A stretch of 64,000 bases of DNA from Ptiloglossa arizonensis (taxonomy: Eukaryota; Arthropoda; Insecta; Hymenoptera; Colletidae): positions 5,876,029-5,940,028 of the forward strand of contig NC_135061.1 in assembly GCF_051014685.1 (NCBI RefSeq), written 5' to 3'. The notes beneath the pieces were generated by a model. The model made no database searches. It saw nothing but the letters and a program-made list of their open reading frames with translations, and was not told the DNA's origin. The first letter of the stretch is position 1. Every line of letters begins with the position of its first letter. Positions 3,001-62,645 of this stretch are shown one piece after another. A program made the translations under genes and the position numbers.

Positions 3001-4945
3001 TTCTGGCATTTCTGAAACTTTAAACAATTGTATTCTTTTCTTGTCACAATTATGGATTGTACTGTTTGAGAAAATGTGTGAAAATTTAACAAAATTAGAG
3101 ACATCGCTCGAATACTGATTGCGAGAAAAATATAATTCTAGATGAAAATTTCTATTACGAGGAAATTAATCTTCGAAACTTTGAAATTTTTATTCGTTAC
3201 TGTTGCAACAATTTTTACAGTCTTTCTGTGCGTTTTACAACTAAAACTTTCAGAATGAACGAAGAATCGATTGGAAACAATTAATAAACGTGGTACAATC
3301 GAGCGGATAATCATCAGATGACTGGTCACAGGGCCATATTCTCATTTGTTCGTTTCGTTGCAATCGTCATGTTGACCAAAAGTGTATTGTACTATGTTCA
3401 ACGTACACTGTATCGAAACACCAAGAAACTATTGCAAATGGTAATGGTTCGTACTATTTCTACCAGTATAAATATTTATTCGTTTAGTCGCCTGTCAATA
3501 TACTCTTGTTACGATCACGTGATTCTAACAATATAACTGCTTCCTCTGGTCGATTTGCTTTCGCATTCTCTAAAATACCATAAAAAGAAAATCATTCCTA
3601 GTTTGAACGAAGAACACGAAACGATCGAGATTTTAATCGAGAAAAATATTTTCCAAAATTTCCCTACAGTAATTCATTGCTTGTACAAAACGAATTCGTT
3701 AGGTCGGACGAAACGTCTTCTCTATATTTTTTCAGAAATTATTGAAACTGCTACCAAACAACAACAAACCCAAAATATCTTTCCGCTGTTCGTTAAAGAA
3801 CAGTCGAAACTGATACAAACGCCAAAAGAGACAATGGATACTCTCAGTCTTTTAAAAAACTGCATCGAATGTGAATCATCGTATTCCATACATCCTCGTG
3901 AAGTTAAACCATAGAACGATAGTTTACGACATCCTTTTATCACACTATCGCAAATGCTCCAAGAATCCCGCGAACGTTCACCATGCGGGTATACACGTAA
4001 ACGATCGAGATTCGCTTCGATACGGGAAATAGAAGCGTTTCGAGAAGAGATAACGAAGCTGGCATCGGTCCAATGCCGAAAACAATGTTGCAAACTTGAA
4101 TTTATGGGTTTGCAACATCCTTGGGTTATAAAAAAAAAAAAATTCCACGGCGCGATACGCGAGCGTAAAACGTTCATTGAGGAGTGCGCCCTCAAGACTC
4201 GTTGGCGGAAAGACTCGTTAAAACGAACGAATTACCGTAATACGGAAAATAATAATAATAATGGGAGCTCCGTGAGCCACGACGAAATTGTTTAACCATT
4301 ACGAAAGGAATGAGTTTCTCATTCTTTGGGACGAGTAGCGAGGAGAGACGAGCATTCACCTCATTTCCCATCGTCTCTACTTGCTTCGGTTTTTCGTAGC
4401 GTTTCACGCCTGAAAACGGACGCATTATAACGGCTGCTCTCCCGCCTCAAAGAGCACTGACGCTCAGAAATAACGAGAATGTAATTTTCCGGGACGCGTA
4501 TTATTATTATCATCGACGGGACACAACTACCCCCACAACGTACCACGTCTACCACCCTTACGACACCACTGTTCTTCGACGTTCTTCGTGTTTCGCATAT
4601 TCGGTTGCTCGGGACGTGCATCCGTCCCTATTTCTCCTCGCTATTGTTCAAACGCATCGTTGCGACTGGCAGCCCGCTTCGTTATCGCAAATCCTCTTCC
4701 TTGTACCTGTCTTCCTCTCCTCGTTCTCTCCCGTTGCTTTCAGACTTTCAGACTACCCGCTCTTGGGACTCGTCTCGACTGACCGTGTATTTTCTTCTTT
4801 TTTTTTTCTCTTTTTTTTTCACTGAATTTTCGGAATCTTTTCCCATTTTCGAGAAATAGAATTCGTGGCGTCTTTCGTTGCGATGAAAGATTGGGAAAGG
4901 AGAGAAGAATGTTGTATCTTGGGTCGATTTGGGGATCTACTTCGT
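1..4945. other. Non-coding stretch, no gene supported
   Basis: I see no supported gene in this stretch. Open frames of up to about 157 codons exist but overlap each other on both strands and show no recognisable domains. Visible low-complexity elements are a T-rich tract near 905-938, an A-run at 4130-4142 beside a short (AAT)n run at 4247-4261, and a T-rich tract near 4796-4820. Composition is AT-rich with abundant CpG, like most of the window. Confidence 0.5.
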
Positions 4946-5420
4946 AGGTTGGTCTAGGAAGTACTTGAACTATGTAAGAAAATACAAAAATTTGGGTAAA
5001 GTGTCTTTATTTCGTTTTGGAACCATTTGTTTTAGTGGACTGTAAGACATTCTAGTAGGTCCTGTTTTATAGGTTGGTCTGAGAAGTACCTGAGCTAAGT
5101 AAGAAAATACAAAAATTTGGGTAAAAGTATCTTTATTTTGTTTTGGAGCCATTTTGTTTTAGTGGACTAGTGGACTTATCTGTAAGACATTCTAGCAGGT
5201 CCTGTTTTATAGCTTGGTCTCAGAAGTACCTGAGCTAAGTAAAAAAATACAAAAATTTGGAAAAAAGTATCTTTATTTTGTTTTGGAACCATTTTGTTTA
5301 ATTGGACTAGTGGACTTATCTGTAAGACATCCTATCAGGTCCTGCTTTATAGGTTGGTCTTACAAGTACCTGAACTAAGTAAGAAAATACAAAAATTTGG
5401 GAAAAAGTATTACTTTTTGT
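4946..5420. repeat. Tandem repeat, ~140 bp unit, about 3.5 copies, mariner-like unit start
   Basis: Units start at 4946, 5071, 5211 and 5351; unit lengths are 125, 140 and 140 bp and the last copy is partial. The first unit is shorter mainly because it lacks the internal tggactagtggacttatc-type insertion seen in later units. Each unit starts TAGGTTGGTCT followed by an AAGTACCTGA-like stretch. That resembles the terminal repeat of mariner-type transposons, which begin GGTTG after a TA target. The opposite end of such an element is not visible, so an origin by amplification of one transposon end is inference. A 60-codon minus-strand frame at 4970-5152 simply translates the repeat. Confidence 0.85.
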
Positions 5421-6815
5421 ACTTTATTAAACTATTTTTTAGTTTTTCCATTTGAACACGTAAACGAATCGTCGTTATTGAAAAATCGCGTATTCGTGTG
5501 TACTTAAATTCTTTGTACAACAGATAATTTATTGACAAGATAATACACACCGTGTATTCAATATTTTGTAAGTATAATTTAATCGATCAGGATTGCAAAC
5601 AGTGGAAAACGACTCAATTAAACGGTGTTCTCATTCATGCTAATACTACAATCGGTCTTAAACATGTTTCTGACTGGCACAGTTAGCAAATCCTCAGCAT
5701 AGATTAATACTCTACCATCTTAAATGCTGAAAAACGAATTGCTTGCCATCCATAAACGTCATTCTTCCGGCAGTAGATAATGCCACTTAAATCGGCCGTA
5801 ATTTGTCTAGCTGCGCGCCATTCCTAAGAAGATGCTCGGTTGCATCTGGCAATCTAGTGACTCTAATTTTGCTGTATTAGTCACAGACTCGTACCATTAC
5901 TTTTAACGGAATTCCGCAGTTGTGCAACCTTCGTTCGGAAGATTAATTAGCAGTATTTTTTTCGTAATACGCGATATCAAATCGTGCGTAAGATTGAAAA
6001 CTTGAAAGCAAAAAAACCTGGATCAATAATATCTTCGCGAAAATAGAATAAAATGAAAAATTTATCGACGTTCAAATGCAATGTCAACGTACGGGTTATG
6101 TACAAACTTTGTCTATTAAATATTACAATAATAAACTTACGATAGACGAGAGGAGAATATCTAGGAGAAGTATAAATATTACTTATTTTGTGCATCTTTA
6201 TTGCGTGCATGTACAAACATTTTTCTTCATAGATGACTCGAGTATTTTATGTACTTTGTATTGTATTTATTATTATTTTCTATACAGATATGTGTAGCTT
6301 CTTATATGGTTCTAAAGTTCACTCAACGTAAAATAAGTACTTTCTCCCTAAAGTAACAGAAATATGTATTTTCGCTGACATTGTTTACATCACAATCACA
6401 AGATGACTTTTCGCAAAATACGTTTTAAAGTAACTGACAAAGGAAACTTAAACCGAATCTTCTAAATTTCAATAATTCGAATCAGTCGTTATTTAATTAG
6501 ACGTAGAGTGAGAAGTCAGAATCGAATATACGAATTATGTAGTCAAAGTTAGTCGTCGCAAATTCATTCCAGAATTCAATCCTTTCTACCTCTAACTCAG
6601 ACCCAACCGCGTGTGAATCTTCCAACGAGTAGAGTGAATGGTATATATCGAGAATGAGCGAGATAGAGCAACAGCAAACGAGACTCGCATTACGCGAGCT
6701 CGATGCTCGTTGCTTTAAAGCGATATCGCGCTCGTATCGGTGTGACGCTCGCTAATGCGAACATTTTTATATTTCTCACTGTATCTTCGTGAGAATATTA
6801 TAAAGTAGACAAAAT
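5421..6815. other. Non-coding AT-rich stretch
   Basis: No gene, RNA or mobile element could be supported here. Open frames are at most about 79 codons and lie on both strands. Around 5640-5940 the base composition is more even, but no reading frame stays open. Confidence 0.5.
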
Positions 6816-19898: not shown

Positions 19899-20289
19899 GG
19901 GGATGATCAAAAAGTGGAAAATATAATTCCAGGGAAGGTGAAAATATTTCCTAGGAAAACAGAAGTTGTTACGATCCAGAAAACAATCAGGGGATGATCG
20001 AAAAGTGGAAAATATAATTCCAGAGAAGATGAAAATATTTCCTAGGAAAACAGAAGTTGTAACGATCCAGAAAACAATCAGGGGATGATCAAAAAATTCG
20101 AGAAGAAGTGAAAATGTTTCCTAGGGAAACAGAAGTTGAAACGATCCAGAAAATAATGAGGGAATGATCAAAAAGTGGAAAATATAATTCCAGAGAAGGT
20201 GAAAATATTTCCTAGGAAAACAGAAGTTGTAACGATCCAGAAAATAATCAGGGGATGATCAAAAATTGGAGAATATAATTCCAAAGAAA
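19899..20289. repeat. 91 bp tandem repeat, about 4.4 copies
   Basis: Units start at 19899, 19990, 20081, 20160 and 20251. Each begins ggggatgatc(a/g)aaaa and contains a gaaaatatttcctagg word, a gaaacagaagttg-type word, and acgatccagaaaa before the next unit. Unit 3 is 79 bp because of a 12 bp deletion in its first part. The last unit is truncated after about 40 bp and runs directly into repeat copy B at 20290. High identity between units suggests recent amplification. Confidence 0.95.
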
Positions 20290-20400
20290 TCTCTTTGTAC
20301 ATTTCACGCAATTAGCTGTGTGTAAAAACATCGACAACATCGTAAATAATAATTAAATCTTTTCTGCGTTTATATATCCTCCATGTGCTACGAACATCCG
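20290..20400. repeat. Dispersed repeat, copy B (partner at 19104-19247)
   Basis: This is the second, shorter copy of the repeat at 19104-19247, in the same orientation. It begins at the point where the last partial unit of the 91 bp array ends. Confidence 0.75.
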
Positions 20401-23400
20401 CTCTAGTCGCTCCGAAGAACTTTAAAGAATGACAAACCGTTTACAAAATAAAGAATTCTATTCCTATTCATGTGTTTCAAACCAGGAACGTAGTAACGTA
20501 ATACTACGTTCATATGGTCACCGTAGTAACGCTCGAAAAATTTCTCAGCAGTTTCATAATGCGATCGAACGATATTCACTACAAAGCAGTACATCGAAAC
20601 GAGCCCCGCGTTCGGTATGATTCGTTTACCGAACGAATTATCCTGACACAGTGCTGTTTTATCGAGACCTATCGAATCTACGGTAAATTCGATTAAGCAT
20701 AATCACATTATCGGTCAGTATTTAATCACAGTCCGAGCGGCAGGTTTCCCGTGTCCCGAGTGGGATATTTTCCTCGTTAGGGGTCGATAGGAATTCAACG
20801 GGCGGCGGCCGCGAATTCAATACTCCGCAAGTTTCCGCCGTTAGAAACTCGGATCGCGTATAAAATCGGTGGTCGGGATCGTGCGAGGGCGTCCTCGAGC
20901 GATAAGAATGAACCAAGGGAAGGCCAGGAATCGTCCCACATGGATGGAAAGCGAACCGGTACCTCGGAACGTGGCATTTTCGTAAGGCTGATCAGATTTT
21001 GACGAAGCTGCCAGCTGCGTTGCACTTGGAATGGAGATTCCGGAATTTATGGTTTTCATTTCTTGGCCGGCGTCGGACGTGTTACTCGCTTGGTACGTGA
21101 CGGAAATATTCAAGAAGCCGGGAAACCGGTTACATCTGTGTTTTAAGAGAAGCGCGACTCGCCCGCGGTATTTACTCGTCGCGAAAGATAACAAAAAGCT
21201 GGATAACGTTTGCGAAAAGAAACAGAAAGGTACTCTGTCGTCGAGTATAAGATAAAGTAGCTTCGGGTGTCCGAACGTAGATAAATAATAATAATACAAG
21301 TGTCTGACACGATCGAGAGCAATCGAGAAAGTGGCAAGTATATAAAAACCAACCAAAATATCAATCAAATTTTATTTATATACTATCTGTAGACACATTT
21401 GAAAGAAATACATGGAAATATTGTGCGATTCCTTTTCGTTGTAATCAGTGGCGGTACCTTAAAATTAAGCTAAATTTATGATAAATTTTACGAGAAAATT
21501 CGCAGCCAATTTGCTGATATTATTTGTTATGCAATTAGCGATTGCATTACGGCGTTGCCGTGGACACAATTCGTAATTAAATACTAAATAAAATCGATTG
21601 GCCAGATCTCACCGCGTGGAATTCGCCGCGTATGGAGACCCGCCCTAAATACATTTCATCCATTCTCTTTTCATGCAGAACTTTTATTGTTCCAAATACG
21701 CGATTGCAAAGCGATTGTGCTTCGATCGCTATTCAAGAACCAACAATGGAAGGAATTTTAAAAGAAATATGTCTAGAAAATTGAACACGAGGTAACACCA
21801 TGTTTTGTACGAATTAAATGGAAATGTCCAATTACGTATGTGTAACCTACTTACTTAAATGCTAAACGAGCATTCGTACTTAATAATGATAATAAGAACT
21901 CTTCCTACGAATAAGGCTAATAGTGAAACACTGCAGTATTTTTTCTCTTATAAATTATCTACCCTAGATGACCGTTATAACAGAACCTGTCTGATTATAA
22001 ATTTAATGTCATTTATATCCTGTCTATAGATATATTCAGAAGAAATGAATGAAAATATTGAATCGATTAGAATTAATTCTTATGGGGGAATAAGTTACAC
22101 TCGATCTTCGATATTATTGCACGAAAGACTGACAGTCCTAACGACGATGCTCATTTTCAGATTACGTTCCTCCCGGTTGAAGGGTGAACATCGCTCGAAG
22201 ATCGTAATTATAAAATTCTGTTATTACCTTTATCCTCTACTTCGGCTGGATTTACATACTGATTGAAGTTTCCAAGTACGTAAACTATGTTAATCGACGC
22301 TGAAATCTCTCAAATTGCCGCAAGATTTATTCTCAAATTATTCATCCTTGAGCCAGTGATGCAAATTACTTGCGGCGGATCGTGATACCCATATATAGTT
22401 TCGTGCTTAAATTAGAAATAATTGTATTGCTATTCCGTATCGATAATACAGTTACTGTGTCTGAGTTAATTTCCTTGGGAACAAACTGTCGAGCAAGCTG
22501 TTAAACTAATTTGTTGCCGTACCGAACTTGCAACTGTGATCGCTCAACAATAATAATTAGTTCCGCGAACACGAGCTAAGATTTCTACTAACAATAACGA
22601 GAAGTAGATAATTGTAGCATTGGGAATATTCAAATGGTATATACTTCGTATATACGTACATGTGTAACTTATTTATCTAAACACGAGTAGGATAAATATT
22701 CTACAAATAGAAATGAATCATATAATATTAGCATCGAAGTAGAAAATCGTAAGCTTGCATTCTCTCTTGGATTTCCTTCAGATATTTAAATATTTACATA
22801 TTTTTCATTCTGTATACTTAAACTAGAGTATTGTTACACATAAAATTAAAAAAGTTCATTGACTATATTTCCATAAAATAAACTACTAAAAAATTAAAGA
22901 AGAAGAACCTGTACCTGTAAAAGTTACTTTTGTTTCGTATCTTTCGATCTTTCAGTGATCACCCTATCACGAGTATTCTCTCGATGGTAGAGACTCGAGA
23001 GCATTCTACTAATTATCCCTTGGAGGGCTCGTGATTACAACTGTTAATCGTCTCGATTAATAATCGCAACCTCGGTGAAACTTCTTTCCGCGACGAGATC
23101 GCGAAACAGAAACCGTAACGAATCGAACGTGCCGGATTGGAATTGGGAACGCGGGGGTGTCTCGTTGTTGTCCCTTCCTCAAGGCGAGGACCGGTCCCTT
23201 TCATCGTAGGGCGTCGTCGACGAATAGAATCGGGTTGCCACTCTTTGCGTGGATCGATCCCAACGTGACTGAACACCAAAGAAAGCCTCGACGTTGCCCA
23301 GAACAGGCTCCCTCGTCCTCCGAGACAAGACAATTCACCGCGAGATAGCTGGGATGTAGTTGTTGAAATCGATGATCGTCTAGGTAGATGTTGAAACGAC

Positions 23401-24807
23401 GAAACGAACTTCAGCTCAGGACCACTCTTGGGACTTCTATCAGCGTGACTTTCAATTAATCGACAGTGATTACTCGAAGCACGGGCCTTGTCCGACAAAT
23501 TGAATCACCACTTGAACGATTTTTCGCAAATATTCGCACCACCTGACCGTGAGTGTTTCATCGAATTAATGTTATTAACCGTTGGAAGAAGCGATTTTCA
23601 AGGTTCGAGGAAACACCGTTTCTTTATTCGAAGGTGAACATTTATTGCCTCTTCAATTCGATACGTCCGTCTCGCTGACTATTTTATTTCTTTGTTTATA
23701 CAGGAGAGGTTCGGTTCGATTGTACGGGGATACTTCGAAGTTGGTTCATGTTGGAAATAAAGTATACGGTCTAAGGATAAACGTCTCGGGTAAATGTTTA
23801 GCTTGTTTCGCTAAGTCTTCGGATTCGAGTTATTTTTGTACTCTGATGATTCTTAAGCACGAAGTTAGAGAAGATTCGGTAAAGGGATGGTTTGAGTACG
23901 AAGGAGATTTTTTTTAAATATCGGTACACGTTTCTGTATTGGCATTAATCCTGTTTATTTGTTCAGTTTGTGTATTTAATACCGTTTAGCACTGCGTGGA
24001 TAATCGTTCGTCGTGAGCAACAAGTAATTCAAATTGCTTCACAAAAGAATTTTTTCTTTTGCTGATTTTGCTGCGATTGGGAGAACAATTTTATAGCGAG
24101 AGGTTGCAGAAGTTTCGAATATTCAAATGGTGTAAACTTTTTGCTGTGTATGCACAATGTAGATATTTTTACCAAGTAACCGAATAATTCTTGAACGAGC
24201 AATTTCCGAAGGAATCTATAGGTTGTGCAGGACCCAAGCTTTTGTGTCCCCGATCGATCGTTCCAATGGCTCCTAAAATGTTATCAGAGACTTTGTATCT
24301 ACGACGTTAACGTTTCGGTTACTACTACGCCATTTTTAAAACACGACGTTCAAATACAAATATCTTTCGGTAGAAATCAAATGGATATTTGAACGAATAA
24401 GTTAGAAATCATTGCTCGATCTGAGCGAAACAATGGTACTCGATTAAAAGTGTGAATCACTGTTTCAAAGAGTCACGGAAGCAAATTTTTGACGAAAACA
24501 AGCGCGAAGTTTAACAATTGTAGTATATGTACTTTTCTCGAATGATCTTAGGAAACCGGCCATTTGAGCACGAAAACTTTTCTTCCCTTCCAAGTTACGA
24601 TTGAAGAGAGACGCGAAAGAAAGTTTTTAGTATAAAGGGACGCGGAGTATCACAATTGTGGAAGTATATTTTTCTCATATCGTTTCAAACCTTCCAATTA
24701 ACTTGGACATCAAAATTTTTGTTTCTACGCGAAAGAGAGTTTCTTTTAATGTAGAAAAATTTGAAGTTGAAAACTTACATGTTGAGATCTACAACATATT
24801 CAAAAAT
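20401..24807. other. Non-coding stretch
   Basis: No gene supported over 4.4 kb. An (AAT)n run of about 15 bases occurs near 21284. Minus-strand frames at 20841-21368 (175 codons) and 23013-23498 (161 codons) are among the longer ones, but both overlap open frames on the plus strand in GC-richer sequence and show no recognisable domain. About 21440-21660 contains several TAAT-type words mixed with CpG-rich sequence and could be regulatory, but the evidence is too thin to call it. Confidence 0.5.
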
Positions 24808-25513
24808 CCAGGTTCCTTCCAGATTCCTTTCAGGTTCCTTCCAGGTTCTTTTCAGGTCAGATTTCTTTAAGGTCGGGTTCCTTTCAGATCAGGTGCCTTT
24901 CAGGTCAGGTTCCTTTCAGATCAGGTTCCTTTCAGATCTGGTTCCTTTCATATCGTATTCCTTCCAGGTTTCTTCCAGGTTTTTTCAGGTCAGATTTCTC
25001 TCAGGTCGGGTTCCTTTCAGATCAGGTGTCTTTCAGGTTAGGATCCTTTCAGATCAGGTTCCTTTCTAACAGATTCCTTCCAGGTTTCTTCCAGGTCTCT
25101 TCCAGGTTTCTTCCAGGTTCTTTTCAGGTCAGATTTCTCTCAGGTCAGGTTTCTTTCAGGTCAGATTTCTTTCAAATCAGGTTCCTTTCACATCGGATTC
25201 CTTCCAGGTTTCTCTCAGGTTCTTTTCAGGTCAGATTTCTCTCAGGTCAGATTCCTTTCAGATCAGGTTCCTCTCAGATAAGCTCCCTTTCATATCGGAT
25301 TCCTTCCAGATTTCTTCGAGGTTCTTTTCAGTTCAGGTCCCTTCCAAGTTGAGTTCCTTTAATGTCCCTTACAGGTTCCCTTCAAGTCGAGTTCCTTTCA
25401 GATCAGATTCCCTTCAGTTCGGGTTCCTTCCAGGTTCCTCCCAGGTTCTTTTCAAGTCAAGTTCCTTACACGTTCCTGGCAGACTCCTTTCGAGTCAGGT
25501 CCCCTCCCAGTTC
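24808..25513. repeat. Composite 11/16 bp satellite with higher-order structure
   Basis: The array is built from an 11 bp word (ggttccttcca) and a 16 bp word (ggtcaggttcctttca) that equals the 11-mer plus ggtca. Blocks of the two types alternate. A larger pattern starting tatcggattccttcca recurs near 24951, 25192 and 25293, with a variant near 25068, giving a second-order period of roughly 100-130 bp. Open plus-strand frames of 85-108 codons at 24761-25606 are translations of this array (repeating Phe-Gln-Val-Arg-Phe-Leu-Ser) and are not evidence of a gene. The plus strand repeatedly presents a pyrimidine run followed by CAG|GT. Confidence 0.95.
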
Positions 25514-25961
25514 TCAACTCACGAACGTTACACGATACTCGAAACGAGCGATCCCTGGAAGGAGCTTAGGCAGAGAATTCCACGCGGGACAAGCGTACGC
25601 CGGTAGTCGGCAAACGAAGCAATCCGGCGGAAACATTGCAGGCCGAATGTCTCCTATTCCGTGTTCCTCCCGTCTCTCGCGTCAACTTCGAACGACTACC
25701 TCCAGCCTTCGGGTTCCGTGCTCGTCTCCGCGTCCACGTAACATTGCCTGCCGCTAAGTACGTCCCGCGGAAAGTTCCACGCCGCTACGGGGAATCGGTG
25801 AGGTTTCCCCCAGAGACCCGACCGAGGAGCTTCCAAGTAAAAGCAATTCCTCTTCGCGCCAAGGACTCGCGTTTCGTTTCAACTGCAGCCGTGGACCTGA
25901 CGAGGGGGCACCGGCTCGGACCGACCCGGAAGAGGTTATTATCCGTTACGAGGCGTCGCGA
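25514..25961. other. GC-richer unique spacer
   Basis: About 450 bp of GC-richer unique sequence separates the 11/16 bp satellite from the first purine array. Several plus-strand frames stay open through it but in conflicting phases. No gene is supported. Confidence 0.5.
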
Positions 25962-26222
25962 ATGGAACGCGGAACAACGAGGGAGAAAGAAACGGAACGA
26001 GAGAGAAAGAGACGGAACGTGAGGGAAAAAATGGAACGAGAGAGAAAAAGATGGAATGGGAGAGAAAAAATGGAACGAGAGAGAAAGAGATGGAACGAGA
26101 GAGGAAGAGATGGAACGAGAGAGAAAGAGATGGAACGAGAGAGAAAGAAACGGAAGAAGAAAGAAAAAAACGGAATGAGAGTGAAAGAGATGGAATGAGA
26201 AAGGAAGAGATGGAATGAGAGT
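25962..26222. repeat. Purine-rich ~20 bp tandem array, left block
   Basis: Units follow gagagaaagagatggaacga with 18-20 bp spacing. The plus strand is almost entirely A and G, interrupted by a C or T in each unit. The same unit resumes on the far side of the unique insert, at 26455-26822. Long frames on both strands here translate the repeat (Glu/Arg/Lys on plus; Ser/Phe/Leu on minus). Confidence 0.95.
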
Positions 26223-26454
26223 GTGGCGGCGCTACCCACGCTTGCCACCAGAGGGAAACTTACCACTAACCGTTTCCCGCAAGTTCCCGTACCTGCTCCG
26301 ATCGGTATATATACGATCCCATACCGATCTTCCAATGTCCCGGCGTATAAGGCAGGGCCTGCTAGGATGCCTTACTGACGAGTCCACTAGCAGGCCCGGG
26401 ATGAAACACTTCTCCCTTTTCCTATTTCCGTTCTCTCCTTCCTTTCGTAGCCAA
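26223..26454 (+). mobile_element. Unique structured insert inside the purine array (possible ribozyme-bearing retroelement fragment)
   Basis: About 230 bp of non-repetitive sequence interrupts the purine array. In order it holds a weak inverted repeat (GTGGC 26223-26227 / GCCAC 26244-26248) and an imperfect one (GGGAAACTT 26253-26261 / AAGTTCCC 26281-26288). A perfect 9 bp hairpin follows (GATCGGTAT 26300-26308 / ATACCGATC 26321-26329), then the hammerhead motif (26342-26410). It ends with a pyrimidine tract (about 26410-26440) complementary in character to the flanking purine arrays. In animals, hammerheads are known from Penelope-like elements, from small circular-RNA retrozymes and from some satellite DNAs. 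Which of these applies is not decidable, and target duplications cannot be read because the flanks are themselves repetitive. Confidence 0.45.
26342..26410 (+). ncRNA. Hammerhead self-cleaving ribozyme (stem III-open order)
   Basis: All core elements are present in the right order. The cleavage triplet is GTA (26345-26347). Stem I is TAAGGCA (26348-26354) with TGCCTTA (26368-26374), seven perfect pairs. The core CTGACGA is 26375-26381 (consensus CUGANGA). Stem II is GTCC (26382-26385) with GGAT (26399-26402), four pairs including a closing G-U. GAAA is 26403-26406. Stem III is weak: A26406-T26346 and C26407-G26345, then an A/C mismatch and two further pairs at most. Cleavage is predicted after A26347. 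Short stem III is common in retroelement-associated hammerheads. Loop I (GGGCCTGCTAG, 26355-26365) is exactly complementary to loop II (CTAGCAGGCCC, 26387-26397), so a strong loop-loop contact is possible; it could also form an alternative 11 bp hairpin that blocks the active fold. Confidence 0.82.
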
Positions 26455-26822
26455 AAGAGAGAAAAAATGATGGAACGAGAGAGAAAGAGATGAAATGAGA
26501 AAGGAAGAGATGGAACGAGAGAGAAAGAAATGGAACGAGAGAGAAAGAAATGAAATGAGAAAGAAAAAGTTGGAACGAGAAAGAAAGAGATGGAACAACA
26601 AAAAAAGAGATAGAACGAGAAAGAAAAAGATGAAATGAGAAAGAAAAAGATGGAACGAGAAAGAAAAAGATGAAATGAGAAAGAAAAAGATGGAACGAGA
26701 AAGAAAAAGATGGAACGAGAAAGAAAGAGATGGAACAAGAAAAAAAGAGATGGAACGAGAAAGAAAGAAACAGAACAAGAAAAAAAGAGATGGAACGAGA
26801 AAGAAAGAGACGAAACGAGAAG
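26455..26822. repeat. Purine-rich ~20 bp tandem array, right block
   Basis: This continues the same unit family as 25962-26222, with the variant gagaaagaaagagatggaac dominating and occasional gaaatgagaaag forms. The 283-codon minus-strand frame at 26232-27083 and the 118-codon frame at 26422-26778 translate this array (Ser-Phe-Ser-Phe-His-Leu-Phe-Leu-Ser-Arg type repeats), so I do not call them genes. Confidence 0.95.
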
Positions 26823-28226
26823 AATAGAAGGTGATGGGAGATCGACTCGGTGAAGTGGAGAAACGAGCTCAGGTAAGACGAAGAGAAGACTCACTCGTTC
26901 CAGGGTATTGTCGGGTGTTTCTGATGTAAAACAACCTACTCCGGACTGGTGCGTCGCGTTCTCGGGACGATGAAAATTACGAAGGCGAGTTCGCGCGTCG
27001 GTAAATGCGACGGAGAGTACGGTGTTCTCAAAACGGACATCCCGATGCAATATCAGAACCAGGTGAAAAAGAAATGGGACCAAGCGAAGCGTTCACAAAA
27101 CGCTCTACGACGATCGTGGTGCCCGTTGGATGATCGTTCCAGGAGTCGAGGAGTTTACGCAACCGGAGCTCGAGTAGCCTCGGAGCGGGAAAACTGGAAT
27201 TCAATTTGAAATCGTCATCGCCCGCGTAATTATTCAATTGAGTTTAAGCGCGAGACGCTGGATCGACCTACACGGTGCACCGGTTTGCTATTGATACGGA
27301 ATTATTGTTACGGGGTCCAATGAACGGACGATAGACGATCGATGTTCAGATACGTTTACTCGATCCACTGTTCTATGGATTTTGTCTGAACGTTTCAGAC
27401 GTCAGTAAAATCATCGAGTTTGTCGATGAATGGAGGCGAGTTCTCAGTTGTTGGCAAGACAAGTAACGAACTGTGCGTCAATTAACGAACGTTACTGATA
27501 TATTTCTTTTTCTAGGAAAAAGAATTCTTTTACTTTGTAACTCGCATTTCATACAAACGGAGTAACATTCGTTAGACACTTTACAATTTTGATCAAAATA
27601 AAAAGAATATTTCTAGCAGGTCAAGGAGGTTTCATACGAGAGCGAAATTAAAATAATATATTTCAATTTAACACAACGTCAAATTCATTAAAAAAGATAT
27701 TCTTTCTAACTTTATTTCGCAGCCCGGATAAACTCGATGAAAATTCTCTGAAATTACACACGCGTGAATTTGCACGGCTGTGAATAAAAACAGGGTGTAC
27801 ATAGTTTCGTGGACAATTTAAAAAAAGAATCAATTGTTCGATTATCGCGGTTCTTTTTCAGGAAAAATTTAAAATTTGAACAAATCCTTCATGTTTTACA
27901 TTTAATAGTTGTCGAATAGTGGGTTACTCGAGCATTTCGCAAATTCGTTATTTTATTTTCAACCTGAAAATTCACAAATTGGTTTATCTGGCTTTCGCTA
28001 CGAACAATACATAGTGTATCGGAGCCTATTTATATTTCTGTTGGGATATCGACCGACGTCTCGATTTAAATACAGGGATCGACTGAATTTTTGGTAATGG
28101 AAAAAATTGCTAAAATTGAGTAGGAAAAACGAGAACTCGTTACAACTTGGTCCACCGTGTTCAAAAATTTCCAGGATCGTGGAAATTACGGAAGTAAATT
28201 CGTATGGGACCAAATGGGGAAAAAAC
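26823..28226. other. Non-coding stretch containing one copy of a dispersed repeat
   Basis: No gene supported. A segment at about 27035-27074 (ggacatcccgatgcaatatc, then agaaccaggtgaaaaagaaa) is closely matched at 28227-28265. Confidence 0.5.
27035..27074. repeat. Dispersed repeat, copy 1 (partner at 28227-28265)
   Basis: Copy 1 carries ccgatgcaatatcagaacc followed by aggtgaaaaagaaa. Copy 2 carries cctgatgcaatattagagcc followed by aggtgaaaagaaa. Looser similarity extends upstream of both (gaaaattacgaa.gcgagttcg against gaaattacggaagtaaattcg). The conserved core is about 40 bp. The source family is unknown. Confidence 0.6.
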
Positions 28227-28265
28227 AGACACCCTGATGCAATATTAGAGCCAGGTGAAAAGAAA
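28227..28265. repeat. Dispersed repeat, copy 2 (partner at 27035-27074)
   Basis: Same orientation as copy 1, about 1.19 kb downstream. See that entry for the shared words. Confidence 0.6.
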
Positions 28266-29034
28266 GGAGAGAAAATAGGGCGTTGTTGGGAAATATACGG
28301 CATCCGGGCAGCTTGCAGACATTTTTTGAAATAACATGCCCCACGGAGGAAACGCGAAACTGCTGCAATATACTCAGAGAAGTTAACCGTCAGAGTTCTG
28401 AGCGTTGTAAGTTGGCTCGCGGCAGTACGAGACTGACTTATTGTTAAAAAGACGACCGATAAGTTTCGAAAACATTGAAAATTACGAACACACGGAATTT
28501 TTATTCGAGAGTTATAAAAGATGCTCGTAATAAAATTGCGTAAGTTTCTTTCGAAATCAATTTCTAATCGAATAATTACTACAATCGTAATAGTTCCTAG
28601 CAGTCGTAACTTTGATAACATTTATTTACCAAACCCACGGTAATTTAATCCAAAAAGTATTTCACATGTATATACATATGAAATGTTTTACCTTGTTCGA
28701 AGAACAACAAAATTTCGCTTCAACTGACTATAACACGTTCCATAATACATTCGTTCAATATTAATTTTCATTTATTTTTATCAGCCTACACTTCTTCCTA
28801 AACAAAAAATTAATTCTATAACGTGCAAAATAGTATCCTAAATTACCACAGATAAATATCTACGTCGAATGAAAACCGAAATGTAAAAAAACACAAGTGT
28901 AGGTACACGTGCATTTGTAAAGGCACAAGTGATCTCTTGCATTTCAAACGAACCGACTCCGATTAGTCCCGCGACAATTCCAATCAGGTTCTTGACAAAC
29001 GGTACGTTCGAACTGAGCACACTTTATCCGAAAG

Positions 29035-29065
<31 letters not shown>

Positions 29066-32000
29066 AGAAAATGGAACACTCGAACGAATCAGAGAAGTCC
29101 CGATCGATTGTCGTCCGGATGCAAGGCACTTAATTGCATCGCTGATAAAGCTCGCGTCAAGGCCACGGAATACCTTGGCAAAAAAGCAAGATTAATCGCG
29201 ATCGGTCCGCGCAATTTATCACCGGGTTCTGCTCGGCTACATGCGCAAATCTGGTCAACAAACCGAACGTACTCGAGGAACCTCGTTTCTTGCCACCTAT
29301 TCGCGAGAATCGTCGCGTTATCGAACCTCCTGTCGCTTAACTCGAGCCAGTCGTGGAGATATCGTCGAAAAAATCGGCAACGTTCACCGAATGGAACCAC
29401 AAATCGTTCCATCCATCTGAACGTAGACTCGACTGGGTAGATTGTGAACGAAATCGCAGTAGTGGATATGGAAAGCTTCGGTTACCGAAAGTGCTAGATC
29501 CATTAAAGGTAACCGGAATACGGCTGGCTAAATGATCGTGAAATTCGTCGAGGAACGTATGGAAACCCAATGGCGAAATCTGTTCATGATATTTGCAACT
29601 GAAAATCGATCGAGATCTCATTCCTATCGGAGGATTCTCACTCCAGACGCGATTTCATCACAATAACTGCACGTTTCTACAACGAATGTTTCACGATCGT
29701 AAAGTAATGGCTTCGTTTTTTAATGGAACGAGCTTACTTCTATCGGCAATATAAAACGAAACGGTAGTTATTTTTTTAGTGTACATTTATCGAATTAACG
29801 ATTACTACGCGATGATGGAAAAATATTTCGATTTAATTTGGAATTATTTCTTTCAATTCGAGAATTAATTTTGTAGAAGATTTTTTTTCGAAAATTTTAC
29901 CTAATCGAAAATGGAGGAGGATTTTGTTACGTATGTATATTCAAAATTCAAATATATATACACAGATTTATAAATATTAAATTCAAGATGAAAGATGCAA
30001 GAGAGAATACTTTGCGAAGAAAAGCCATGTAAAGTGAAATAAATTTACGATATTGTACGATATATCGAGTAAATGTTTTAATAACTCTTTTTAATATTTG
30101 AAATTATTAACGTAAAATATTTACACCGGTTATTATTTATCCTAGCATTTATGAATTACAAGTTTTCCATTCATTCGTATTATAACCGTGACTTGAATTA
30201 TTCGATTTCTCAAACGATGAATAGGTAACAATATTTTTTATTACATTCCATAAAATTAATGAATCAATCGTAACAAATGTAGCAACTATGCGAGATAAAA
30301 CAGTACGAGTTACGTACAATATAAATTGTCAGTTTCTGTGTTCTGATAAGTAATTCTTCCTTTAGCTTTCAAAGAGTAATATTTATATAATTAAAACCAA
30401 AAAAAAAAAAAAAAAAGTTCGTACTACTTTCTCACAGATCAAGGCACATTTAACCACAAACGAAATCATGCAAAGCAGTGTCCTATCTTCTTTCTCCTTT
30501 TTCTTCCAGGCAAACTCAAAACTAGATACAAACTTGTAACAAGTTTCGTAAATCATGTTAGTGTAACACGTGAGTAGAATCGTTTTGGAAATATTGTATG
30601 TAGTGTCGCGGTCGTATTTCTTACGTATTTCGTACACCGCAATATCGCGTTCGAAATCTGAATTCCTTTGAAATATTCATGTACCGATACAACGGTTTCC
30701 ATAAATCCGTGCAATAAATTCTCTTTCGTTACTTCCTCGTGACGACGTCGTGCGATCTTATTGCTGTGATAAAGTTCAATTTTCTGTCCAAAGATCGAAC
30801 ACGAAACAACAAAACGACGATAGAATCTAAACGATGCGTTATCAACGACACGTGCAATTGTTTCGCTCGTTAGCTTCGATTACCCGCCAAAAACGTAATT
30901 CGAATGTCTGGAAACGAACTCGTTGCAATAAAGTTCACGGTCTAACGCAGTAATTTAATAAACAGAGTGCCACGCTAGCAGTTCCGTGCGAATGCAACGA
31001 GTTCACCGAGTTCTTGAGTGTTCAACCATGCGATGAACTTAAATTTCGGCGCAGTAAATAAACTTGGCTCCCTTTAATTTCGCGATACCTGATATTGTCG
31101 AAGTAATGTTTCGCCAAGTGTGGCAATAAAGGAGCGTATATAATTAATTTATAACATATAAAGATAAGATTGCGCGCTGTAATACCTCCTCGCTGAAAAC
31201 GTAGTGTAAAGACCTTGCGCCAGGAGAGAAACAATAAACGGAGTGTCGTATATTTTACATTGTAACGCTCCAAATTCTAACAAGAATTTCACAATATCGA
31301 TTTACCCGAGCAACTGTACCTTAGATAATAAATAGACCACCATTGGCACAATTTTCACTCAATAACAAGCAGACAAAATTACAATTTATTTATCTCCGTT
31401 AAAATCGATTCTATCGAAAATTCGTACACTAGAAAAAAGTTTCTAAATTTAATTTCCAATACCTTTCGTTATGTACATTTTTACCATAAAGACAACGACG
31501 AGCGAGATATCGATGATTCTGTAATCGAAGCTCCTCTTTCACGAAGAATCTTCTCATGGAGCTTGTCAGGTGATTCTGTACGTTGAATATCGCAAACACT
31601 TGTACCGATTCTCCGGTTACCGGTTAACAAACCCGCAAAACTGTATTTTCTTTATGCAGCGCAGACATCTGCATATAAATTCGGCGTGAATCCCGAGCGA
31701 AATTGTAGCCTCCTCGAATCGGCGAGTCGCGCGTCACCGTGAGACGCGTCGATAAACCCGCTAAACTAGCTGCAACGTGAACACGTTTTCTCGTTTATTT
31801 TCGGCAAAGTCACGCAAATCCCGGACCGGATTGAGACGTCGTAGACCCCCGCACGGGCCGGGTCGTCTATAGCCAACGACGTACGATAAGCGGGGATCGT
31901 TTTTCTCTGTAACAGCTATCGGTATCTGTGTAGCTATTTCAGAACGGCACGTGAGCGGAATCAATTGAAAGGTTGGCCTGGCAAAGCCGCGCCCCGTCCA

Positions 32001-32645
32001 ACTAGAACTTCCATTAAGCCCGGAGAGATGCACAACCCTCGTCGTTCACTCGGTTAACCCTGCAGCCGAGGAACGCGTGCACGTGCTACTCGGTTCTAAG
32101 ACGATCGACCAAGTTTCGCGGAACTACGGAACGTAGGCCCGGGACAATGACTGGTAATTAAGGACGAGATCGACTGGACGATATCGCGAGATTCGAGTCC
32201 CCGTATCGATTCGACGAGCAACTTTTCATCGACGAATGTATGGAAGGATCGCGGGTGAAAAGTTTCGATTGTTCCGACAGGGATACCGGGGGAAGTGATT
32301 CCGACGAAAGTGCGGAACAAACGCATTCGAAGAAAGGGAGAATTTTGTTTGTTTCTCCTTCTGTGAACTGTTGTTTGACTTGACCCGTGCTCGAGAAGTT
32401 TACGGAGATTCGTAATCGAGGATCGTTAGGGACAGGAGTTGAACGCGATTCGAAATCTTCGAGATTCGTGCAAAGTTATCGAGGGCGAAGGGCGCGGAGT
32501 CGAAATTCGTGGACGACATTTGAATTCGTGTGATCGATGGGGATGGAAGATTTATGCGAATGAATCTGAGGGAATGCTTTTTTCGGAAATTAATCGTGAT
32601 TTTTGGATGCGATGTAGTGCACGTGAATTTTTCTTGGAAAAGTTG
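28266..32645. other. Non-coding stretch with (AAAAG)n and a long A-run
   Basis: No gene supported. An (AAAAG)n-type purine tract lies at 29030-29072. An 18-base A-run is at 30399-30416, a length compatible with the tail of an old retroposed copy, but no body upstream could be identified. The minus-strand frame at 27998-28621 (207 codons) overlaps a repeat copy and has no recognised domain. Confidence 0.5.
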
Positions 32646-33200
32646 ATGGGAAAATTATTAATGGGATATTTGTCGATAGAGAAATTAGGTATAGGAAAAT
32701 CATAGATAGAAAAATTGTCTGTAGAGGAATTATAAATAGGAAATTTTTCGATAGGAAAATTATAAAGAGGAAAATTGTAGATGGAAAGTATGTCTATAGA
32801 GAAATTATAAATTGAAGAATCATTTATAGGAAAATTGTTAAGAGGAAAATTATAAATTGAAGAATCATTTATAAGAAAATTGTTAATAGGAAAATTATAG
32901 ATAGAAAAATTGTCCGTAGAGAAATTATAAATAGGACATTTTTCGATAGGAAAATTGTAGATGGAGAAAGTGTGTATAGAGAAATTATAAATAGGAAAAT
33001 TATCCATAGGAAAATTATAAATTGAAGAATCATTTATAGGAAAATTGTTAATAGGAAAATTATAGATTGAAGAATCATTTATAAGAAAATTGTTAATAGG
33101 AAAATTATAGATAGAAAAATTGTCTATAGAGAAATTTTTTTAATAGGAAATTGTCGATAGGAAAACTATAAATAGGAAATATCCCAATAGAAAAATTACA
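32646..33200. repeat. 15 bp satellite, about 37 units
   Basis: The unit consensus is ataggaaaattataa with near-perfect 15 bp spacing through at least 32646-33130, then slight irregularity to about 33200. Common variants are atagagaaattataa, ataggaaaattgtta and attgaagaatcattt. Because the period is a multiple of three, the minus strand stays open from 33007 down to 32552 and reads as five-residue repeats of the type Asn-Phe-Ser/Pro-Ile-Tyr/Asn. The tail beyond the array (below about 32645) does not look like a protein, so translation of the repeat is the simpler explanation. Confidence 0.95.
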
Positions 33201-36200
33201 CGTAAAATAACTGTTCGAAAAAATACAATCAATAGATATACAAGGAACTGTACTCTCGTAAGCCCAGTCCCTAAAATCCATCGTTCCGGTCTATTTAATC
33301 CACATCTCGATTTTTATCGAGAACTCGATTTGAATTGATGCGGCGCCGTTTAATCTATTGGCACAGTATTTGCGGAACATCCTGTGCAATCGTGCGAATT
33401 CCAAAGAATATTGTCTTCCGTTCTCGTTCAATCTCAGCACTCCGAGCAACCGATAGAGCGAGCGAAGGAACGAGAACACCTCTACGGGTGTTCTCTGTAA
33501 TAACGTTCTTTTTCTGGGCAACAATGGACCGACCGGCATCGTAAAACGAAGCTGGCCGGACAAAAATTTCAAAGGCAACCTATTTACGGCGAATTGCTGA
33601 ACACGACGCCGGTTTTGGACAATGCAAACGACTTGCCGAGCCATTTAACGTGCGTGAGAGGGCCCCCGTAGTGCACCACGCGAACCAAAATCAAAAGAAA
33701 CCCGACGACACAGAAATTATAATAGGGAACGAAGTGCAAGGTCAACGATACAAAACTGAACGTAGACTCCTTGGGAGATACCGTGAAAAAGAACTCGGTT
33801 CAACGAAAATAAAAGACCGACACAGAAACCGGCTTCTTCGACCCATGGAAATTCTTCCTCCTTTTTTCGGACAATTGAGCGAAAGAATTTTTTTTTAAAG
33901 GAAAACGAAAATATCGTAGCTGCATTCCAGGAGGAAGAAAGTGTGCCAAAGAGAGATAACTGCCAATTAACAATTACGATAGCCGGTAGGTATGTCTAAC
34001 GCGAAAATTCTTCGTTCTCGTTTAAGAAAATTGAATAAAAGAATCGTTACTGAGAAATGAAAACGTGAACGAGAGAAATTGCATCGAACGAGGGAGAAAA
34101 TTGTACGAAAGAAGCGACGAGAAAGCAACAATAACAGCTGGTAGCAACTATTTCGTAGCTAGAAATGATTCGCGTAAAAATGTTGGACAATAAAAACTAG
34201 AAAGAGATGGGGAAAAATTTAGATGGAAGCCGAGTCACGGAAATGAAAGGGAAGAGAAACGCAACACCAGAAGGACATCAGCCGGGTAAATTAACAAAGG
34301 AATAACTAAAGAGGCCACGGAACACACACAGGAAAATTAATAAAACGCTGAGCGGAAAAAAAAACAAACGAAACGAGATACCTGGCGTGGCGAATGTAAG
34401 ACTTGGTGAAAGAACGGACGGAACAACGCTGGACTACGAAACAGTCGGAGCAACGTTGTTAATTAGCAGCGAAACCAGAAAGGGAATAGAAATATTGTAA
34501 AAAAGAGCGAGCTGAAAAATCAAGAAACGAAGAAAACAGAGGAGAGCCAATCCGATGGAGGAGACCGTGGAGAAATAAAGGTAAAGGGATATTCGGTGGA
34601 GGCAACCGAGTCGGTAGTGGAAGTTTGTGGAAAAACTAAGAACGGAATTAAGAAAATACCACAGACGGAAGGAAACAGGATCAAGAGGGGGATAGAGAAC
34701 GAAGGGTGCTCGATTGCTTCTAGCAAGGAATTCGCGAACGTAAAAGCACCGAGAGCTGAATAGAGAGACACCGACATTGCTCGCTCGACACGTGACTGGC
34801 ATATTTTGGTTCCGGGTGGTAGCTGGCATTTCTGGTCCCGATGTCGCTCGATGCTCGTTCAACGAACGCCAAGGGTTCGATGTTCACACGCGTCACGAAC
34901 ACGGGATGGAATCAAAGCGTGTAGTTGCTAGCCCCACGGTGCCAATAGAAGCGCTAAACTAAACCGAACGAAGACCACACTGGAATACTACCGGACCAGT
35001 AATGGAGACGTTCGATTCTTCCGCGCCACCAGTGATTACCAGGACGCTCGATGCAACCGATTCCGTTACGTACGAACGTTTTAACGCGAATTCCACCCCA
35101 GTTGTATCTGGTTCAACGATCCGGAATCAAGGTAGATTTGTTTTTTCTCTTTCTTCTTTTTTTTTTCTACTTCTTTTTTCGGAGCACAATTCTCAATGGC
35201 AATGGCTTACTTTATTTTTACAAGGTTCCGATTTCGCTGAATCGCATCGAGGCTTGCCGATACACTTGAACGATAAAGGGTGGAAATAAGTTTACGGTCT
35301 TGTTCTTTATTCTTTTGATTCGTAAAAATGTACATTTGTCGACGAAAGTTTTGTTAATTATTGTTCTTGAATTCTTGGACATTTTTCGACGATCGAAATA
35401 CGTGGACTGGTGTTACAATCGATGGGAAGGAATAATAGTTGGTGTGTCGATGAAGAATGAGCTTCTTTTCGAATGTATTTGTACGAAAAATATGATTATT
35501 TAATCGTGGTAAGGAATGAGTCTGCGGCAAAAATTAAGAAAGATTATTTTAAATACATGATTTTGTGCTCAATTTATCGCCTACTGAAAATTAAATTCAA
35601 AAAATTACAAAAGTAATAACGATCGAAATACAAAGATACAAGGTATTTCTTCGGAGAAATATATTTAAAATAATTGTTAACTCACGGAGAAAAATTCTTT
35701 TACTGAAATTTCATTTCAAAAACTTTCGAAACAAAGCGTGTACACCTCGGATCACTAAACCAGAAAGTTACAACACTTTAAAATCGCTACGTGAAAATAC
35801 GTGATAAGTATTATAACATTTGAGAACTGAAGTTTCGTTGGAAGCGAAGGGGATATTTTCGTTTAGTTAACTTAAAAATTCTGCCAAGTATAAGATACCG
35901 TGTTCCCCGAGCGTATTGAAACTGCCGTGAATTTTTTGTTAAAATGTAAACCAAGAAGCGTGGGAGCAAAAAAGAGTAAACTTCAACGTTCCGAAAGTAA
36001 ATCTGACTTTTACACGCAATTTTGGTATATCTGGTGGGATACAAAATTTTATCGTCCCTCTTGGGAAAATTTGCAATGGTATAGAAGTGAAACTTCGCCA
36101 CGCTCGGAAGCAGAGATAGCGGTTTCTGACTTTAAACGTCTCGCGTTGGAAATAATCAAATATTCAACGCTTTGAATAAAACGTTCCGACTCATTTTCGA

Positions 36201-61844: not shown

Positions 61845-62645
61845 TCAATGTAGACAATACAGTAGCAGAAATTCAAAGATTGAATCGCTCGTCAGGAGGA
61901 AGTACTTAGGTGTTTAAAGGTTTCAGGATTAGAAAATTAGGTGACGTAGAGTCTGGTTAATATGTGTAGATGAAAAAACAGGTTAAATCGAAATGAAAAT
62001 ATTTAGCTAGATGATATTGGTTTCGAACATTCTACAGCTTATCCTATCACTGTACAAAGTATATTTTTATTCAGTTAGTTTGTCAAATGGAAGACTCTAT
62101 TGACATCGACTTGTACGTAAAAAAAGTAGTACGATGTAAAATCAAATCAAATCCGTATAAAATATTATTACACAACCGAGAAACGATCAATCGAATTACA
62201 ATTCAAAATTCCCGCGAATTCTTGGTTAAATTGTAGATATACGTACATAACGATAACGGTGGGAATTCAAAGTGTTCGTTTCTAGCTCGCAATAACCTTA
62301 ATTTGACAGCCAAATAGAGCTCAGCAATGTTTATGTGTCCACTGTACTTTTCTCGATTTTGAGATCGAATCGCGCGAACTCGAGGCGATTTCATGAAATT
62401 GCTCGGGATTATAAGCCGCTTTGATGCTCAATCGATAGAAAATACTTTCGTGGTATACTTTACTGCACCCTCGTACGTTCAATATTTACCAACGTTAACT
62501 TTGTTTTCCATTAACGTTACTTTTCGATACAAATATTCATTTCGTAATTCCAATATCAATATTTAATCAATGCACAGAGATTTACACGAGTATATATACA
62601 TCTCGTATGATTATCAATGTTCACCATTATTGTGTACAAACATTC
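61845..62645. other. Non-coding stretch
   Basis: No gene supported. A weakly coding-like minus-strand stretch continues to about 61912 (stop at 61845, then a frame open for about 21 codons). Beyond that the sequence returns to ordinary AT-rich composition. Confidence 0.45.

Follow-up and report, generated by a model that had tools for sequence, protein, structure and literature searches.

The hammerhead motif at positions 26342-26410 of the window, as we call the whole 64,000-nucleotide stretch of the Ptiloglossa arizonensis genome analysed here, is part of the LTR of a mobile element, a fact that an earlier note on this DNA had missed. The element is a real, high-copy one with a well-kept type III hammerhead. 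We explain the family as a whole as an insect LTR retrozyme with hammerhead-bearing LTRs, for which we infer self-cleavage and spread via ribozyme-made RNA circles (probability roughly 0.85). The observed part of this explanation comprises the LTR-PBS-internal-PPT-LTR layout, the target-site duplications, the copy number, the tandem multimers, and the conserved ribozyme with its loop complement. Every anatomical feature of LTR retrozymes that was tested was found in the family, partner identity being the exception. By analogy, the element most likely works like a plant LTR retrozyme, and the placement of a hammerhead in its LTRs probably lets it spread as RNA circles.

Hammerhead ribozyme in a solo LTR

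The features at the window site are as follows.

26218-26221, no strand: left target-site duplication AGAG, just 5' of TGTGGCGG and found again just 3' of GCCAAA
26222-26455, + strand: retrozyme solo LTR, 234 bp, 91% identical to the LTR of L003 over positions 1-228
26306-26313, + strand: TATA-like box TATATATA, about 30 bp 5' of the ribozyme (from the sequence; putative function)
26342-26410, + strand: type III hammerhead ribozyme (sequence, descriptor scan, permissive Rfam search and genome copies)
26342-26346, + strand: stem III 5' strand GGCGU, partner of 26406-26410; middle pair C26344 x A26408 broken in the window copy
26345-26347, + strand: cleavage triplet GTA
26347-26348, + strand: cleavage predicted between A26347 and T26348 from homology with the hammerhead fold
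26348-26354, + strand: stem I 5' strand, 7/7 Watson-Crick with 26368-26374
26355-26365, + strand: loop I arm GGGCCTGCTAG, complement of 26387-26397, 11/11 Watson-Crick
26368-26374, + strand: stem I 3' strand, partner of 26348-26354
26375-26381, + strand: core CTGACGA
26382-26402, + strand: stem II hairpin, 26382-26385 with 26399-26402 (G.U, U-A, C-G, C-G)
26387-26397, + strand: loop II arm CTAGCAGGCCC, complement of the loop I arm
26403-26406, + strand: core GAAA, the last A (26406) paired in stem III
26406-26410, + strand: stem III 3' strand, ACACT in the window copy and ACGCT in most of the family
26407, + strand: conserved C
26411-26455, + strand: part of the LTR behind the ribozyme, hypervariable in the family (comparison of family LTRs)
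26456-26459, no strand: right target-site duplication AGAG, from the sequence

Judged by sequence, the reading of this motif as a type III hammerhead with an 11-bp complement between loops I and II is right. A UH cleavage site, CTGANGA and GAAA follow one another in the correct order, stems I and II are closed by loops, and stem III is open. The GTA triplet, 7-bp stem I, CTGACGA, 4-bp stem II, GAAA and C described in the earlier note were each found in their places, and the 11-base complement that it reported (26355-26365 with 26387-26397) is Watson-Crick at all 11 positions and occurs family-wide. Its description of stem III as minimal suits the window copy, in which A26408 breaks the stem, but not most of the family, in which the stem has 5 bp (GGCGU/ACGCU). 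A strict type III descriptor (GTH, stem I, CTGANGA, stem II, GAA, A and pairing base, in this order) gave a single match in the window with both strands scanned. In one strand of 20 Mb of first-order Markov sequence, it gave one weaker match (stem I of at least 5 and stem II of at least 3 bp) and none with 7 and 4 bp. The covariance-model check proposed in the note was unfavourable: the window hammerhead had no Rfam hit at the gathering score, which is a threshold on score and not a structural feature of the hammerhead class, and a permissive search gave RF00008 (Hammerhead_3) at 17.2 bits (gathering, 48.5; E 0.39). That alignment extends over the full model; loop I has an insertion of 14 nt, and loop II has 13 residues compared with 8 in the model.

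Two other ribozyme classes were considered and rejected. An HDV-type pseudoknot ribozyme, with its order a-b-a'-b', was dismissed on inspection, given that there is no room for a P3 hairpin and that the core fits a hammerhead; the known anatomy of HDV was used for this comparison. A minimal type I hammerhead of Penelope/Terminon was dismissed because the type I scan of the window was empty and LTR anatomy is present.

The tail of the window LTR is shortened, with a total length of 234 bp versus 254 bp for the reference LTR of L003. The LTR is inserted in one GA-rich 20-bp minisatellite (25976-26221 and 26469-26821), and given these surroundings the AGAG repeat at this copy is possibly a chance match; the same rule is obeyed at 36 of 37 loci with several LTRs. 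Recombination between LTRs would leave solo LTRs such as this one. A Pfam search of window positions 20001-35000 in six frames, together with ten open reading frames, yielded nothing but a low-complexity Extensin match. The window contains four further tandem arrays (19899-20288, 91-bp units; 62641-62931, 143-bp; 24842-25336, 16/102-bp; and 32691-33179, 15-bp), which by eye are unrelated to the ribozyme.

A dispersed family with LTR anatomy

The genome searched comprises 998.7 Mb in 2016 contigs. A search with the 73-nt motif returned at least 40 matches (the best 40 of 997 candidates), with 39 other places that were all 99% identical. By pattern count, the 62-nt core motif occurs within 3 mismatches at 731 places compared with 0 in the control, which bears out the expectation of further genomic copies in the earlier note, and the LTR-PBS junction occurs within 2 mismatches at 279 places compared with 1 in the control. 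From 100 places listed among these 279, we read 28 loci and six multimer loci: the 20 first listed on contig C1 (L029-L048), six with junctions about 760 bp apart (L049-L054), and eight on C2 and C3 (L087-L094).

A complete copy begins with an LTR (TGTGGCGGC...GCCGCCAAA) that is about 254 bp long and contains the ribozyme at about 119-188; a tRNA-Trp PBS, about 507 bp of non-coding sequence, a purine tract and a second LTR follow. The hammerhead-bearing direct LTRs flanking a short non-coding region that characterize LTR retrozymes are thus present. L003 and L010 are complete, with two LTRs starting 761-762 bp apart and an internal region that opens with GTGGTGACCCCG and closes with GGCAAGGGGGTTA. 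No Pfam match was found in the six frames of the L010 internal region at an E value of 0.1, or on L048. The L010 monomer is 762 nt long with 54% GC, and its circular minimum free energy has a z score of -3.7 relative to 20 shuffles.

The 4-bp target-site duplication of LTR retrozymes was likewise found. Among the 37 loci with at least two full LTRs and an internal region, a count from which L021, L030 and L048 were left out for incomplete LTRs, an exact 4-bp duplication was present at 33 and an exact 5-bp duplication at three (L031, L040 and L088); the duplication was absent at one, the compound locus L096, whose second LTR continues into another element. L053 and L054, as well as L003 and L010, are probably duplicated loci. 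Solo LTRs in amplified blocks (L004, L005, L007-L009 and L025-L027) have the imperfect flanks TCCT/TACT, and those in the sister blocks (L006 and L022-L024) have exact TACT flanks. Eighteen of the best 40 motif matches lie on one contig (G000:C254), all in the same orientation. Six of these loci were read (L004-L009). Each is a solo LTR within a block that matches L004 at 92-96% identity across about 3 kb, so that these six represent an amplified segment.

The contigs that carry the element are those of an insect. A profile search with PF02949, which we take to be the odorant-receptor family of insects, gave 134 matches in the genome, many of them in tandem clusters, and 0 in 14 control genomes, and contigs C4, C7, C8 and C9 carry both PF02949 matches and the element. 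A plant host or contamination was therefore rejected. The window has a CpG observed/expected ratio of 1.58, and ten loci have one of 1.46, values typical of Hymenoptera. Pattern searches gave 0 matches in viral contigs, one archaeal place, lacking a ribozyme by eye, in the contigs of other genomes, and no gain in plasmids.

Conservation of the ribozyme

LTRs were picked by the LTR-PBS junction rather than by the ribozyme to avoid ascertainment bias. In 53 such LTRs, the invariant columns numbered 63 of 68 in the ribozyme, 103 of 120 upstream and 16 of 67 downstream; conservation of the upstream part was 0.992. With the partial LTRs of L030 and L048 excluded, 69 full LTRs at 33 junction-picked loci were available, of which 65 carry a canonical ribozyme. 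The other four have either a single change in stem I (L029, L035 and L043) or U4C (L030), and both loop arms are perfect in 67 of the 69. The U4C core variant (CCGANGA) was also seen in L019, L048, L070, L071, L076, L083 and L086; it has been described as a weak variant that still permits viroid infectivity (PMC3088659). Its presence in some copies is a point against the retrozyme reading.

At the position of A26408, G is present in all seven of the other loci read first and in 69 of the 69 junction-picked full LTRs, and A is found also in L072, L078 and one LTR of L019; A26408 is a minority state of the family. The first stem II pair is G.U in 26 of 27 distinct family ribozymes, so that this wobble is not decay of the window copy, and CpG decay of stem II (C11.1 to U) as its origin was rejected. 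Given that the first stem II pair is described as the most conserved hammerhead pair besides A15.1-U16.1 (PMC3088659), G.U at this place counts against the hammerhead reading.

To the main family we added older copies, either retrieved with a pattern designed not to match that family (20 places, three of them in the window array) or met by accident (L048, L059 and L066). The alignment of 27 distinct ribozymes leaves out the array copies, L077 (match too short), the L017 insertion variant and four L079 tandem copies. Paired cells make up 91.7% of it, a value reached by 24 of 500 shuffles, and two-sided changes occur at five pairs compared with 1.7 in the shuffled data, 4 of 500 of which have as many. 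The 11-bp loop-loop helix accounts for three of these five pairs (L078; L081; L084 and L059). Of the five measures computed, the two most favourable, the two-sided pairs being one of them, were reached by 4 and 2 of 500 shuffles; the covariation score was reached by 41 of 500, and further pair types fell below the shuffles (497 of 500). An alignment slid by -1 column still has four two-sided pairs versus five. The fourth stem I pair is unpaired in 10 of the 27 sequences and the third loop-helix pair in nine (two older variants). Covariation in these sequences thus lends weak support to the loop-loop helix, the main support for which is its near-invariance.

Predicted pairing between loops I and II

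Pseudoknot-free folding of the window copy gave -29.4 kcal/mol for the 11-bp hairpin versus -6.9 kcal/mol for the bare nested hammerhead. The corresponding values for the family sequence were -30.3 kcal/mol (11-bp hairpin plus stem III) and -13.4 kcal/mol, and the best such fold lacks stems I and II, a point against the hammerhead. Since none of the bases in the loop arms is part of stem I, II or III, competition for bases is not required, the two can coexist and any clash would be steric only; the real alternative to the 11-bp hairpin is therefore the hammerhead plus the loop-loop helix. By a crude A-form estimate for a 13-nt loop, an 11-bp helix leaves a gap of 30.9 A to be bridged with up to 36.7 A available, which is tight but possible, and shorter pairings are easier. 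We consider it most likely that the 11-bp pairing is formed at least partly, as a loop-loop pseudoknot of unusual length.

Many natural hammerheads use a loop-loop pseudoknot to hold stems I and II side by side, and about 40% of hammerheads are predicted to have a pseudoknot between these stems, with lengths of 4-6 bp mentioned (PMC3088659) compared with 11 bp here. That the long helix instead acts as an off-switch on the hammerhead appears doubtful. Such a role would agree with nested folding, in which the 11-bp helix prevails after transcription of most of its 3' arm, and with plant retrozyme monomers, in which the ribozyme is predicted to be conformationally blocked (PMC4918200); a title on the BYDV satellite is also among the references of PMC6155905. 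It is opposed by the absence of bases common to arms and stems, which permits coexistence, by a gap that a 13-nt loop can bridge, and by the hammerhead tested in PMC3088659, which was less active when its pseudoknot was cut from 6 to 4 bp. The idea that the complement is a template-switch scar private to the window copy was rejected, given that it is family-wide and present also in old copies.

Priming site, purine tract and a possible partner

The tRNA-Trp gene of this genome with CCA added predicts the primer site TGGTGACCCCGACGTG, and the PBS of the element, TGGTGACCCCG, is identical to the first 11 bases of this site, the complement of the tRNA-Trp 3' end plus CCA. A 16-nt stretch further inside the element is also complementary to tRNA-Trp. 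The PPT GGCAAGGGGGTTA, identified by inspection, precedes the 3' LTR. The family thus has both the tRNA-complementary PBS (tRNA-Trp, 11 nt) and the PPT of LTR retrozymes.

With regard to similarity of LTR ends, PBS and PPT to a Ty3-gypsy partner, the sole lead is a broken element of copia type. In L096 and L097, a ribozyme LTR is followed by 38 nt that are 95% complementary to tRNA-Trp, and a search found the two loci 100% identical over 346 bp from the LTR end onward. L097/L099 contain a broken copia-type gag (PF14223, 31-51 bits) about 1 kb downstream of the ribozyme LTR. These loci could be remains of an autonomous copia-type master with the same ribozyme LTR, the 760-bp elements being its deletion derivatives. 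We consider this unlikely, given that the 2.7-kb piece read yielded no pol domain and has broken frames, that L096 and L097 diverge further downstream and nested insertions are likely, and that copia elements usually make 5-bp duplications and this family mostly 4-bp ones, which are described as fitting gypsy better than copia (PMC10886601). L096, L097 and L099 map to G000:C14 around 2602000 and 2736000, and in L096 a retrozyme unit directly precedes, in tandem, the LTR with the 38-nt tRNA-Trp complement.

Tandem multimers and discordant LTRs

Matching duplications are present at the outer ends of all six multimer loci (five of them independent). L049 (1003-3543) is a trimer in the order A-B-A with a perfect 4-bp duplication at its ends: units 1 and 3 are identical (0 differences), as are LTRs 1 and 3, and there are 32 positions at which unit 2 departs from them. 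This order would be expected from a mixed-dimer circle copied for one and a half rounds, with unequal exchange as the alternative; LTR 4, which has seven differences from LTR 2, located both upstream and downstream of the ribozyme, is not simply explained by either. In four dimers, the outer LTRs are identical through the ribozyme end and different only behind it, with substitutions (five in L050, six in L051, five in L052 and four in L053) that all lie at position 207 or later. The inner LTR of L050-L052 is unlike both outer LTRs upstream as well. In L053, LTRs 1 and 2 are the same, and the stretch behind the ribozyme is different in the 3'-most LTR alone.

The LTR pairs of 22 single elements showed seven substitutions upstream of the ribozyme, four in it and 102 behind it (66 of the 254 positions), the last number including alignment noise in an indel-rich stretch. 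Among 31 single elements, 17 have at most one difference behind the ribozyme, two have three, and 12 have at least four; one of these 12 is the compound L096, without which 11 of 30 are discordant. When scored by which LTR, 5' or 3', has the post-ribozyme part closer to the nearest internal region, the discordant elements split 7 to 4 with one tie. Agreement or near agreement up to the ribozyme with discordance behind it was seen in L033, L038, L042-L045, L047, L019, L087 and L090 and in the dimers L050-L053.

Mutation after insertion would not cluster behind the ribozyme. Normal LTR copying derives both LTRs from one, so that discordant LTRs would have arisen either on a template that was circular or multimeric or by gene conversion. 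In the first case, independent passes would have been made with the first-made stretch taken from another RNA; in the second, conversion would have acted in the sole stretch that varies much in the family. Together, the tandem multimers, one of them A-B-A, and the LTR discordance suggest copying of circular or multimeric RNA, although multimers and the A-B-A order could also come from unequal recombination and the discordant LTRs from gene conversion.

Proposed mechanism and its rivals

For an insect LTR retrozyme, transcription would start at the TATA box just upstream of the ribozyme, and given this position both RNA ends would be made by the ribozyme. A host ligase would close the monomer to a circle, on which tRNA-Trp would prime a borrowed LTR-retrotransposon reverse transcriptase. 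One or more rounds on the circle would yield single, dimeric or trimeric DNA, and integrase would insert this DNA with a 4-bp, sometimes 5-bp, duplication.

A more far-reaching version, which we put forward tentatively and as more apt to fail than to hold, sees an animal LTR retrozyme in which ribozyme-made RNA circles replace the repeat-mediated strand transfers on which LTR retrotransposition usually relies. The LTRs of a new copy would be made in separate passes round a template that is circular and sometimes a mixed dimer, and another RNA would supply the stretch made first, behind the ribozyme, leaving A-B-A multimers and discordant LTRs. A loop-loop helix as long as one full turn at most would hold the ribozyme, and elements of this class may form a link between the retrozymes of plants and those of animals.

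It is quite unlikely that the family is instead an ordinary TRIM spread by normal LTR retrotransposition, with a non-cleaving hammerhead kept by the youth of the family or as a 5' leader or packaging structure. Ants and other Hymenoptera are known to have TRIMs with 4-bp duplications (PMC10886601, PMC3532108), the upstream part of the LTR is also highly conserved (0.992), and the 17 of 31 single elements with at most one LTR difference behind the ribozyme are what normal LTR copying predicts. The canonical hammerhead in 65 of 69 LTRs and the mostly kept pairing in old copies are, however, hard to explain without cleavage, the TATA box is placed so that the ribozyme would make both RNA ends, and tandem multimers and LTR discordance starting behind the ribozyme are unexpected under normal LTR copying. 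A chance motif in unique or satellite DNA, for which the missing gathering-level Rfam hit and the repetitive surroundings might be cited, has a negligible probability and was rejected in view of the near-zero Markov rate, the 731 dispersed genomic places against 0 in the control, the target-site duplications and the complete elements.

Comparison with known systems

Retrozymes have been described as two groups: LTR elements of plants, whose hammerheads are of type III, and non-LTR elements of animals, whose hammerheads are of type I (PMC4918200, PMC7229834, PMC7761336). The plant LTR retrozymes have a type III hammerhead, LTR, PBS, PPT and a 4-bp target-site duplication (PMC4918200). The present family resembles them in having LTRs of a few hundred bp that both carry a type III hammerhead, a short non-coding centre, PBS and PPT, 4-bp duplications and many solo LTRs, and its ribozyme-to-ribozyme unit of 762 bp compares with 697-776 bp in Jatropha (PMC4918200). 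It differs from the plant elements in its insect host, in its primer (tRNA-Trp versus tRNA-Met), in its loops (an 11-bp Watson-Crick complement versus small non-Watson-Crick contacts), in its GC content (54% versus above 55%, PMC7229834) and in its partner (a copia-like sole lead versus Ty3-gypsy); the likeness to plants described here is one of anatomy.

Metazoan retrozymes are reported to be of type I and without LTR, PBS or PPT (PMC7229834, PMC7761336). The family shares with these non-LTR elements the nature of a hammerhead-bearing, non-coding animal retroelement in which multimers occur. Unlike their tandem repeats of about 150-450 bp, it has a type III hammerhead with LTR, PBS and PPT, and the type I scan of the window was empty. 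Type III hammerheads have been described in HDV-like agents of toad and termite and in termite and dipteran genomes (PMC7936874), and have in common with ours the type, an animal host and a Watson-Crick loop-loop pseudoknot. Those hammerheads have a 5-bp stem I, an internal loop GCCR-YGGC (4 bp) and an extra hairpin of about 20 nt, none of which was found here, whereas the present family has a 7-bp stem I and a 13-nt terminal loop; structure searches by the same authors for their architecture are reported to have given none in hymenopterans (PMC7936874).

The hymenopteran TRIMs PbTRIM (PMC3532108) and Helenus (PMC10886601) are, like this family, miniature LTR elements with 4-bp duplications, tRNA primer sites and solo LTRs, and tRNA-Trp is among the primers of Helenus. 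The word ribozyme does not occur in the account of PbTRIM (PMC3532108), in contrast to the hammerhead here. Helenus LTRs contain a tRNA-like sequence (PMC10886601); ARAGORN detected none at five loci of our family, a search that could miss a decayed tRNA. Among the open-access titles and abstract openings listed, a scope outside which lie subscription journals, preprints and insect type III work in preparation, none described an animal LTR retrozyme.

The insect host matters because this anatomy would be unremarkable in a plant. An LTR family of type III with hundreds of copies in an insect breaks the division between plant and animal retrozymes, and it bears on an origin of retrozymes by horizontal transfer from insects, a possibility mentioned in PMC7761336. 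The family also supplies a natural hammerhead with an 11-bp loop-loop complement, and its high copy number lets the circular-template model be tested from the genome and RNA of one animal.

Relics and older copies

A local search showed that 26346-26390 recurs at 82-84% identity in an array on the opposite strand (5443-4937), so that the motif belongs to a repeat. The relics in this array are listed as a further feature of the window.

5071-5351, - strand: decayed ribozyme relics, at 5307-5351 and 5167-5211 and as a deleted copy from 5071, in an array of tandem 140-bp units

The array (4937-5443, - strand) consists of about 3.6 units of 140 bp, in which a ribozyme relic is fused to a piece that recurs elsewhere without a ribozyme. 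Across the genome, the joined unit was found only in the window, its parts elsewhere. The recurring piece is presumably a mariner end, by its look at L059, and a Pfam search of L059 for the suspected mariner gave nothing. Rfam found no hammerhead in the array. An active tandem retrozyme was rejected as an explanation for it, given that the core of the relics has decayed to CAGATAA and that the full unit occurs only here. At L079 (1497-2011), an old LTR is followed by three ribozyme copies about 173 bp apart, in which stem II is disturbed and most of the loop arms are kept.
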